Part shown: piece by piece, positions 41,626 through 43,941 of the stretch
Layout: every line of letters begins with the position of its first letter
Numbering within the stretch: position 1 is the stretch's first letter
Made by a program: the position numbers and the translations under genes
The notes under the pieces: model-generated
Told to the model about the DNA's origin: nothing
Database searches by the model: none
What the model saw: the letters and a program-made list of their open reading frames with translations, nothing else
NCBI GenBank assembly: GCA_019637875.1
Contig: JAHBUW010000001.1
Coordinates: 186,001-250,000 of the forward strand
Origin: Pseudobdellovibrionaceae bacterium
GTDB lineage: Bacteria > Bdellovibrionota > Bdellovibrionia > Bdellovibrionales > Bdellovibrionaceae
Direction of reading: 5' to 3'
DNA length: 64,000 nucleotides

Positions 41626-41964
41626 GATGATTAAGCTCCCTAAACAAAGGTCCCTTAATGAATTCGCTCCTCTGACGCGACTGTTAGAACTTTAGACGGG
41701 CCCTTTTACACGACCTGCGTTTGGTCAAGGTCCCCAACCCATTTTAATTTCTAATAGTGATCCTTGCGATGACACGCCGAAAACATCGACGTTATCGTTC
41801 CATTTGATTTGTACCCCGGCTGGTTTCGTTTCCACGCGAAATCAAGTTCGATTCGATTGATATGCACTATCGAGATTAAGAATTGGGAAGATCCGAAATG
41901 CGGGAGTAGATTGATCTCATCCAGGGGCACTCAATCCCGGGTGCTCTCCGGCAAGGAGGTTCAA
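41626..41964 (+). promoter_or_regulatory. Intergenic region with promoters for hpf and the broken lipoprotein
   Basis: A 339-base AT-richer gap with no gene visible. It must hold the start signals of the minus-strand lipoprotein remnant and of the plus-strand hpf gene. A weak plus-strand promoter pair is TTGGTC (about 41731) with TTTAAT 16 bases later. The last 20 bases hold the AAGGAGG ribosome binding site of hpf. An in-frame extension of hpf back to 41809 exists but lacks start support. Confidence 0.35.
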
Positions 41965-42327
41965 ATGGTGAAGGTCATCTTCAAAAATCTCGAGAAATCC
42001 GAAATGGTTTCTGAGATCGTCCAGGAGAAAGTCTCGCACGTCCTGGCGAAATTTCCCGAGCTCGAGGGCGCGAACGCCACGGTCTCAGTGGAAATGGAAA
42101 ATTCCCCAATTCATGCGGGGAAAGATGACTTCCGGGTGAAACTTGTCGTGACGAATCGTCGCTTCAAACCACTCGTACTACAGAAGGAAGGCCCCAACCT
42201 CTATCAAGCCGCGGCGATTTTGTCGGATCGACTTTTCGAAGTCCTTCACCGCAGCTTAGAGAAAAAACGGGATCAACGCCGCCATTCGCAGCGCCGTTGG
42301 CAAACCGTTCTTCCGCAAGTGGGATAA
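41965..42327 (+). CDS. hpf: Ribosome hibernation promoting factor / RaiA family
   Basis: A 120-residue protein of the HPF/RaiA (sigma-54 modulation) family, which binds the 30S decoding region and stores ribosomes in inactive form when growth stops. Family features: VIFKNLEKSEMVSEIVQEKVSHVLAKFP at the start, the middle beta strands TVSVEMENSPIHAGKDDFRVKLVV and LYQAAAILSDRLFEVLHRSLEKKRDQRR, the basic last helix. It matches the short form, with a ~20-residue tail. An AAGGAGG ribosome binding site is six bases before the ATG. A strong terminator follows. It would suit the attack-phase/growth switch of a predator, which is inference. Confidence 0.85.
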   Translation: MVKVIFKNLEKSEMVSEIVQEKVSHVLAKFPELEGANATVSVEMENSPIHAGKDDFRVKLVVTNRRFKPLVLQKEGPNLYQAAAILSDRLFEVLHRSLEKKRDQRRHSQRRWQTVLPQVG

Positions 42328-42388: not shown

Positions 42389-42417
42389 GAGGGCTCCGCA
42401 AGGAGCCCTCTTCATTT
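42389..42417 (+). terminator. Rho-independent terminator of hpf
   Basis: GAGGGCTCC and GGAGCCCTC pair perfectly around the tetraloop GCAA, followed by TTCATTT. Its last base is the first base of the 9-bp direct repeat flanking the MITE-like element. Confidence 0.8.
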
Positions 42418-42418
42418 C

Positions 42419-42635
42419 TGAACTGGCCCCTTTGTGTGCGCTTTCCGATTTCCGGAGCGTTTCTGAAAGATCTTTTCTTCCGCTCACTTGGGGCACGGCC
42501 CTCCTGGCCTCGCCGCAGGGTCTTACGCCATCCAGGCGCTGCGGAGGCTGGCCGCCCGCGACCCCAACTGACCGGAAGAAAAGATCTTTCAGAAACTCCC
42601 CGAATCTGAAAAGCGCACACAAAGGGGCCAGCTCC
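42419..42635. mobile_element. MITE-like element: 217 bp, long imperfect terminal inverted repeats, 9-bp direct repeat
   Basis: The two ends are inverted copies of each other over about 75 bases. Left end TGAACTGGCCCCTTTG... and the complement of the right end GGAGCTGGCCCCTTTG... share runs of 22 and 23 identical bases separated by a 15-base variable part. The centre can pair further (GCCGCAG/CTGCGG). CTTCATTTC flanks both sides (42410-42418 and 42636-42644), as expected for a target-site duplication. No transposase is inside, so it would be non-autonomous. The right copy of the repeat overlaps the stop of the marR gene. Apparent ORFs of 95-120 codons on both strands here are products of the symmetry. 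Confidence 0.7.
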
Positions 42636-42637
42636 CT

Positions 42638-43111
42638 TCATTTCAGGTCGGCTTCGATCAAACGGCCCAGCTGCTCCTTCAATTTTTCGAATGAGGTTTG
42701 TCCCAGGACGGCCGCCTGACGGGCTTCAATCTTTTCGGTCACGCGGATCGCGTCTTCGATCACACGTCGGCCCTTCGCTGTGAAGCGAATCCGTTTCGCG
42801 CGCAGATCGTTCGGATCGGCTTCGCGGCGGCAGAGGCCCCGCTTCTCGAGGTGGGCGAGCTGTTGGCTGATGGCCTGCTTCGTCACGCCCGCCAGGCGCG
42901 CGAGCGTTTGCGCGCTGGAACCTTCCGGCGAGATGAATCTCAAGATATTGAAATCTGTGACCAGTAGATCCCGGTGCCCCCGGGCGTGAAGCTCGGCGAC
43001 GAGTTCGTCTTCGAACTGCCGGAACAGCACGACCAAGTAGCGACCCAAGGGCTGGGCGGAGTTGAGTTCGTCGGCTTCGATGCGAATATCGGGAAGGCGG
43101 GACCGGGTCAC
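42638..43111 (-). CDS. MarR-family transcriptional regulator
   Basis: A 157-residue winged-helix regulator. The DNA-binding region is TLARLAGVTKQAISQQLAHLEKRGLCRREADPNDLRAKRIRFTAKGR (wing: DPNDLRAKRI), flanked by helices that form the dimer. The start is GTG in a GTGA overlap with the stop of the hydrolase gene, with AAAGGAA just upstream; a longer frame is a shadow. It is translationally coupled to the alpha/beta hydrolase, and four inverted half-sites sit over the operon promoter, so autoregulation in response to a small molecule (maybe a hydrolase substrate) is likely. The last codons carry one copy of the 9-bp repeat of the MITE-like element. Confidence 0.88.
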   Translation of the reverse strand: MTRSRLPDIRIEADELNSAQPLGRYLVVLFRQFEDELVAELHARGHRDLLVTDFNILRFISPEGSSAQTLARLAGVTKQAISQQLAHLEKRGLCRREADPNDLRAKRIRFTAKGRRVIEDAIRVTEKIEARQAAVLGQTSFEKLKEQLGRLIEADLK

Positions 43112-43941
43112 GGGGATTTCCTTTCGAGCCATTCGCCGAGAAGCGCGGAAAGCTCCGCCGTGTTCTCTTCGGCGACGAAGTGCCCCACTTGATCGAAGGT
43201 CATCACGCGGGCGTAGGGAAGTTCGGAGCGCCAGCGCGCCAGGTTGCGGGGACCGATCAGGCGATCCTCCAGGCCCCAGGCGATCAGCACGGGAAGTTCG
43301 CGTAGACGTTTCAGGATGTCGTCGTTCCGCCACGCGGGCGCGCCGAAATCGAAAAGCGCGCGCATAAAACCCACGGCCCCTTCGCGATCACGCGCGGTGG
43401 GGAACTGATCCATGTAGTGGCGGTGACGTTCGCGCGTGAGCGGATTTTTGCGACCCCAGGCCATTTTCAAAAGCACGCGGGGCGAGAAGTTGAAGCTCCG
43501 GTAAAGCCAGGGCAGCACACCCCATTGAAGGAGTCGCGCCTGGGACTTCATCTGGGGTTCGGTTTCGATCAAGGGCCACAGCCAGGTGTTCAGAAGGATG
43601 ACGCCGCTCACGACGGGGCGGGGCTCGAGGACGGCGGGCAGAGCGATCACCGCACCGAAGTCGTGGACCAGCAAATGGCAGGCGTCGATCTTGAGCATCG
43701 TCAGCCATTCGCGAAAGCGTCGCCGGTGGGCCGCGAGGGAATAGTCCGCGTCCACGGGTTTGTCCGAAGCGCCGAAGCCGAGGTGATCGAGGGCGAGCAC
43801 GCGGTAGCGATCCTTCAGGCTTTCGATGAGCTTCGCGTATTCGCCCGAGTGGGTCGGGGTGCCGTGGGCGATGACAAGGACCGGTCCTTCTCCTTCGTCA
43901 CGGTAGAAAAGCCGTCCGTCGGAGACTTGAAAATGGGGCAA
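43108..43941 (-). CDS. Alpha/beta hydrolase, haloalkane dehalogenase-like
   Basis: A 277-residue cytoplasmic hydrolase. The nucleophile elbow is LLVHDFGAVIALP, where Asp follows His as in haloalkane dehalogenases and epoxide hydrolases; most lipases have Ser there. The oxyanion loop is HGTPTHS, the acid residue could be in GLEDRLIG and the catalytic His in DQVGHFVAEE. Reaction on halogenated or epoxide compounds is possible, but the true substrate is unknown. Start is TTG with GGAGGT upstream. MarR-type control of the operon would fit a substrate-inducible enzyme. Confidence 0.82.
   Translation of the reverse strand: MPHFQVSDGRLFYRDEGEGPVLVIAHGTPTHSGEYAKLIESLKDRYRVLALDHLGFGASDKPVDADYSLAAHRRRFREWLTMLKIDACHLLVHDFGAVIALPAVLEPRPVVSGVILLNTWLWPLIETEPQMKSQARLLQWGVLPWLYRSFNFSPRVLLKMAWGRKNPLTRERHRHYMDQFPTARDREGAVGFMRALFDFGAPAWRNDDILKRLRELPVLIAWGLEDRLIGPRNLARWRSELPYARVMTFDQVGHFVAEENTAELSALLGEWLERKSP

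Follow-up and report, generated by a model that had tools for sequence, protein, structure and literature searches.

Background

Bacterial MITEs such as QMITE2 and Chunjie, reviewed in PMC10969869, are short intergenic elements without a transposase that carry terminal inverted repeats and 7-9-bp duplications, have ends matching an IS, and give rise to transcripts that are predicted to fold. The element described here resembles them in all of these respects. It differs in that complementarity spans nearly the whole element while the match to an IS is confined to the outer part, about 27 bp of it in one subgroup, in that its interior is a three-way junction common to many copies without IS ends, and in that its arms are replaced in concert. 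The REP, BIME and REPIN palindromes with their RAYT transposases are likewise dispersed extragenic palindromes in many copies, but REPs are 20-40 bp long (PMC3733652), whereas the present hairpin is several times longer and has target duplications, IS-type ends and a branched tip. Template-switch hairpins (PMC8794818) share with it compensatory changes of several bases at once and perfect stems that lack G-U intermediates; they were described in RNA genes, whereas here a many-copy mobile family shows near-complete stem turnover at fixed sites. The giant-hairpin family in Bdellovibrio-like bacteria is apparently undescribed: searches of open-access literature found no earlier account of it, Bdellovibrio included.

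The window element and its copies in the same genome

The window is a stretch of 64,000 nucleotides from a Pseudobdellovibrionaceae genome. Between its convergent HPF (S30AE) and MarR-family genes lies a long palindrome, which the original prediction had read from the letters as a MITE-like 217-bp element with a flanking 9-bp direct repeat at the marR stop codon. Both the coordinates and the stop codon were confirmed, with 217 bp between the two copies of the repeat CTTCATTTC (Table 1). The long terminal inverted repeats are also there, pairing along about 75 bases and perfectly so in runs of 22-24, and, as had been claimed, there is no transposase inside: the only ORFs within the 217 bp are derived from the palindrome. 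The mirror-image peptide frames reported on the two strands exist too, but they are a trivial outcome of the element being a palindrome. The predicted fold has an energy of -141 kcal/mol (z = -12.6), which none of 200 shuffles equalled. Comparison with other copies places the ancestral ends at GAAACTG...CAGTTTC, so the ends of the window copy, TGAACTGG and CCAGCTCC, are decayed. The window copy also has a 14-bp insertion, near the positions given in Table 1, that is absent from all other copies in the genome.

Table 1. Parts of the window element and its neighbours (positions in the window).
Feature	Position	Strand	Basis or remark
Whole hairpin element, 217 bp	42419..42635	+	Oriented by core (GGCC-nTCCn-GGCC strand)
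Left 9-bp direct repeat CTTCATTTC, target duplication; tail of terminator-like hairpin 3' of HPF gene	42410..42418	.	Equivalent repeats in 5 other copies
Right 9-bp direct repeat CTTCATTTC; includes MarR-gene stop codon	42636..42644	.	
Left outer arm with IS-type end GAACTGGCCCCTTTGTGTGCGC	42420..42441	+	End type same as IS in L298
Right outer arm, reverse complement of left outer arm; terminal bases decayed	42613..42634	+	
Left inner arm, 24 bases	42459..42482	+	Perfect inverted repeat with 42573-42596
Right inner arm, 24 bases	42573..42596	+	
Apical core, three-way junction	42490..42565	+	
Core hairpin P2, GGCC-CTCCT-GGCC	42497..42509	+	
Core double stem P3/P4: CCGCAG, 7-nt bulge GGTCTTA, CGCC-ATCCA-GGCG, CTGCGG	42513..42544	+	
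14-bp insertion private to window copy	42549..42562	+	Alignment of copies in the genome
Terminator-like hairpin 3' of HPF gene; interrupted downstream by insertion	42389..42410	+	Sequence
HPF-like gene (S30AE domain; ribosome hibernation factor), left neighbour	41941..42327	+	Pfam PF02482
MarR-family regulator gene, right neighbour, start codon approximate	42638..43132	-	Pfam PF12802/PF01047

DNA and covariance-model searches found 14 copies of the hairpin in the genome. All 14 are long hairpins with the same apical core, in which a closing stem, hairpin P2 (GGCC-nTCCn-GGCC) and a bulged double stem P3/P4 (CCGCAG, a 7-nt bulge, CGCC-nTCCn-GGCG, CTGCGG) make up a three-way junction. Most have an imperfectly paired internal loop below the core and an outer stem further down. 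By arm sequence the copies fall into subgroups, 77-82% identical within themselves, and several singletons without mutual resemblance. Direct repeats adjoin the ends in 6 of the 14 (9-11 bp in five, 7 bp in one), and repeats of such length without a mismatch were rare in mismatched controls; outside the window's genome, target duplications showed no excess over these controls. The genome thus holds further copies with matching ends and direct repeats of their own.

The copies favour gene ends. A hexamer gene caller trained on the window puts a stop codon no more than 5 bp from 8 of the 14 copies, whereas 2.6% of intergenic positions are so close to one (P = 5e-10). Regions between convergent genes, 7.7% of intergenic sequence, hold 5 of the 14; regions between divergent genes, 38.5% of it, hold one. 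Thirteen lie downstream of at least one gene, with mixed sense orientation. In several cases the stop codon is carried or rebuilt by the duplication, and the target gene is therefore spared. The stop-codon excess may reflect targeting or survival, which these counts do not separate.

A partner insertion sequence

A pattern search for the hairpin ends led to an autonomous, single-copy IS on contig C8 (locus L298) of the same genome. Its 306-aa transposase ORF, intact and likewise present once in the genome, is bounded by GAAACTGCCCCCTTATGGTGTTGCAAG and GAAACTGCCCCACTAACGTG, and the IS is flanked on both sides by the 9-bp target duplication AATTTCTAA; a related IS in genome G024 has the duplication AGAACATTT. 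In two hairpin copies, L037 and L039, the outer arms on either side of the hairpin closely match the left end of the L298 IS along some 27 bp, and the IS is itself located at a stop codon. The expectation of an IS with matching termini was therefore borne out within the same genome, 9-bp duplication included.

The transposase matched the IS1 NCBIfam model (44.1 bits, E 2e-11, where the curated cutoff is 100); no Pfam match exceeded the cutoff of its family. The partner IS is like the IS1 family in this match and in its 9-bp duplications, and differs in scoring under the curated cutoff and in having a single 306-aa ORF. The end sequence of IS1 differs from the ends of the partner IS as well. 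The transposase would be a distant relative of IS1, and below the family cutoff it is not assigned as a member. Its relatives occur in 30 of 60 related genomes, and several that were examined have IS ends of the same AACTGSCCCC type. One hairpin copy in the genus Bdellovibrio (L332, G075:C4:655900) has IS-type ends, AAACTGGCCCC, on both sides, and mobilisation of the hairpin by this IS group is therefore not confined to the window's genus.

The view that the element is a non-autonomous miniature element gains support from the further copies, their own direct repeats and the IS with matching ends. The genomes searched included no second one of the window's genus, and no empty site was seen. On sequence grounds, we consider it quite likely that the window element qualifies as a MITE on the features that define one, that the IS1-like IS is its probable mover, and that it belongs to a hairpin family. 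In the mechanism that we propose, the IS1-like transposase of the L298 IS would recognise the GAAACTG(S)CCCC ends (GAAACTGSCCCC ends) and would insert the hairpin; each insertion would duplicate 9 bp and often fall on a stop codon, which would spare the target gene.

A family in the Bdellovibrionota

A model built from the copies in the window's genome found the element in 25 of 60 genomes searched, that genome included, with up to 36 matches in a single genome; matches inspected in other genomes were again giant hairpins with the same kind of tip. With a broader model, matches at E <= 1e-4 were found in 63 of the 144 genomes of the class, and matches at E <= 1e-6 in 73 of the 369 genomes of the phylum, counts in which some of the genomes had also supplied training sequences and matches in other classes entered without individual inspection. 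The broader model matched none of 39 control genomes from other groups. An exact pattern scan of genome and viral contig collections gave no match, nor did the phage and plasmid collections. Among 80 loci listed from a looser pattern scan, the model scan identified one clear copy (L192) and one weak edge match (L164), and the remaining listed loci had no model match. These two loci lie on contigs (CALQIT020000010.1 and CALQIT020000061.1) of one MAG recorded as Streptomyces griseus, a label that looks wrong for a MAG with a Bdellovibrionota hairpin at L192.

IS ends were present on both sides in only 7 of 122 elements examined, a set that includes some loci twice, plus the decayed window copy, and the transposase was not found in the hairpin-rich genomes G010, G019 and G052. 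IS mobilisation therefore accounts for the window element and the subgroups, not for the origin of the whole family; it is a side-branch of an older giant-hairpin family. The window element would be one branch of that Bdellovibrionota family, whose architecture we take to be a conserved apical three-way junction on a long, near-perfect stem with arms that change together.

Since most copies have no IS ends, another route of spreading may exist. The tip could be the folded single-stranded DNA substrate of a recombinase or HUH-type enzyme, like attC sites or REP hairpins, a role that would suit the almost strict Watson-Crick pairing, the conserved unpaired bases and a stem that is free in sequence. 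However, the mobile copies share their 9-bp duplications and terminal inverted repeats with a transposase-bearing IS, and no associated recombinase was identified, though no systematic search was made for one; we regard such a substrate as rather improbable.

Several local arrangements were also observed. In G044 (L272, L069) and G019 (L061), partial hairpin copies directly adjoin complete ones, as slipped or template-switched duplication would leave them. Downstream of rplL in G036, G033, G006 and G064 (L351, L348, L357, L347) there is, at the same site, a second kind of giant hairpin, whose apical domain is larger and different (TTCGGACAGTCCTCGC...GCTGNGGAAC) and which may be a distant variant of the same tip. 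At five rplL-rpoB loci in Bdellovibrio genomes (L361, L342, L345, L338, L340), and at L281 in G018, two inverted hairpins face each other about 300 bp apart; in other genomes the rplL-rpoB region has one hairpin, none, or several kb of inserted genes. The idea that such inverted pairs border a cargo element at rplL-rpoB was rejected, because no more than one hairpin is recognised in genomes that carry many inserted genes there.

Arms that turn over while pairing is kept

The arm sequences are unrelated between copies and between species, yet almost perfectly Watson-Crick paired. In an alignment of 59 cores, two-sided changes occur at all 32 pairs, and 641 cells are two-sided while 6 are one-sided; slid or shuffled controls came nowhere near this. 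One-sided changes thus make up 0.9% of the changes in hairpin cores and G-U pairs 0.5% of the standard pairs, with no G-U at all among the copies of the window's genome. RNase P RNA from 23 genomes of one genus (Bdellovibrio), used as a control, has 7.5% G-U pairs and 35% one-sided changes, a comparison in which divergence is deeper among the hairpins and the hairpin alignment is fitted to its model; the absence of intermediates in the hairpin stems is clear despite the unequal data sets. The G-U pairs and one-sided intermediates of an ordinary one-strand structured RNA were thus found in the RNase P control and are nearly absent from the hairpins, and because pairing is kept without G-U intermediates, ordinary one-strand RNA evolution is disfavoured.

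Fixed sites show the same turnover. For the hairpin that ten species of one genus have downstream of rplL, identity is 90% in the tip and 94% in the rplL coding sequence, but 46% and 48% in the two arms (shuffled arms, 33%). Three genomes share a second orthologous site at which both arms have been partly replaced, in concert, and the upstream flank and the tip are unchanged. In some copies an arm appears to extend into neighbouring sequence as an inverted copy, taking in a terminator (G066, G070) or the 3' end of a tRNA gene (L076). At L076 (G025:C57) the tRNA gene adjoins the hairpin and its 3' end recurs in inverted form in the arm opposite; about 500 bp downstream there is another match to the hairpin.

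Replication template switching within a hairpin predicts arm patterns of this kind (PMC8794818). The patterns point to a selected tip around which pairing is renewed in the DNA itself, template switching being the simplest way. In our proposed mechanism the stem would be kept paired by template-switch copying of one arm from the other, and this copying would sometimes reach into flanking sequence.

The subgroups of copies in the window's genome are 77-82% identical and have recent duplications, and one could suppose that the element is an ordinary MITE and nothing else, its tip common by recent descent and its paired arms due to chance or passively kept. This seems to us quite doubtful, because the tip recurs in other families and classes with its helices changed and its unpaired bases constant, and because at orthologous sites the two arms change together around a tip that is kept. 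Given a family with a conserved tip and rewritten arms, the window element is more than an ordinary MITE.

A conserved tip and a transcribed copy

Across the 59 cores, the central T and C of the tip loops are 98-100% conserved and the third C 86-91%, and at the junction a C is conserved at 97% and an A at 100%. Many neighbouring paired positions reach only 54-80%, and outer arm positions about 31-58%. Because the unpaired bases are more constant than their own helices, the folded tip seems to be recognised by something; the pattern suggests a tip under selection and recognised by a protein or nucleic acid. Correspondingly, the proposed mechanism has the near-invariant unpaired bases selected through recognition of the folded tip, by either kind of partner.

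Read on the minus strand, both loops are nGGAn in most copies, with GGA conserved at 86-100% per base, and an nGGAn loop is a CsrA-type motif. The minus-strand loops might therefore be a two-site element with putative binding of a CsrA/RsmA-type regulator, a reading that the skew of the mismatches towards the minus strand would also favour. We hold it to be very unlikely: each element has two sites only, one loop is without GGA in some copies (for example L061), the one known transcript, in HD100, is of the other strand, and the TCC strand is the sense strand in 6 of the 8 copies of the window's genome that have both neighbour genes co-oriented.

That HD100 transcript places one family member in a transcribed region. 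One of the searched genomes is what we take to be B. bacteriovorus HD100, and it has a c-di-GMP riboswitch at 1,073,868-1,073,951 on the minus strand. Its coordinates agree with the published ones, because this riboswitch falls within the published merRNA interval (PMC3627812). The HD100 hairpin copy at 1,339,144-1,339,253 (+) lies within APsRNA6 at 1,338,787-1,339,441 (+), which was published as a small RNA and is an attack-phase transcript driven by FliA (PMC3627812), and therefore at least one copy of the family is in a transcribed region. In the part of the publication drawn on here, APsRNA6 is described as a small RNA with no mention of the hairpin within it, of the hairpin's family, or of an 89-aa ORF (PMC3627812). 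APsRNA6 holds such an ORF (L250 679-948; HD100 1,338,822-1,339,091), which has no Pfam match, and the hairpin is its 3' UTR.

This relative within APsRNA6, the position of 13 of the 14 copies downstream of at least one gene, and the near-invariant unpaired tip bases would also fit a structured non-coding or 3'-UTR RNA, in which the loops would be read by a protein, selection would act on the stem as double-stranded RNA (for instance to stabilise 3' ends or to allow RNase III processing) and movement by the IS would be incidental. Isolated mismatches, skewed to G.U or purine-purine as read on the minus strand, lean the same way. However, G-U pairs and one-sided intermediates are nearly absent, unlike in Bdellovibrio RNase P RNA, the copies of the window's genome are mixed in sense orientation, and the hairpins matched no Rfam family at gathering score; the sole Rfam match at that level was the merRNA riboswitch, which lies elsewhere in HD100. 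An RNA of this kind is possible, and we think it somewhat unlikely. In the mechanism that we prefer, with pairing renewed in DNA, transcription of neighbouring genes would turn the element into a 3'-UTR hairpin.

Significance

We tentatively put forward, as a plausible reading short of a firm one, that these hairpins are a new class of mobile structured element: a selected three-way-junction tip, recognised via its near-invariant unpaired TCC (or GGA) loops, on long palindromic arms that template switching keeps rewriting, found throughout the Bdellovibrionota, often at gene 3' ends, with IS1-like ends acquired in some lineages. In its many copies the family preserves a natural record of the evolution of long DNA palindromes in bacteria. 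At a fixed site its stems turn over almost completely, yet pairing and tip persist, so that the template-switch model of compensatory change can be tested directly on it. The family is also a warning that covariation, commonly taken as proof of a functional RNA, can arise at the DNA level. And since the family includes the model predator Bdellovibrio, with one copy in an attack-phase transcript, the function of the tip can be tested genetically there.
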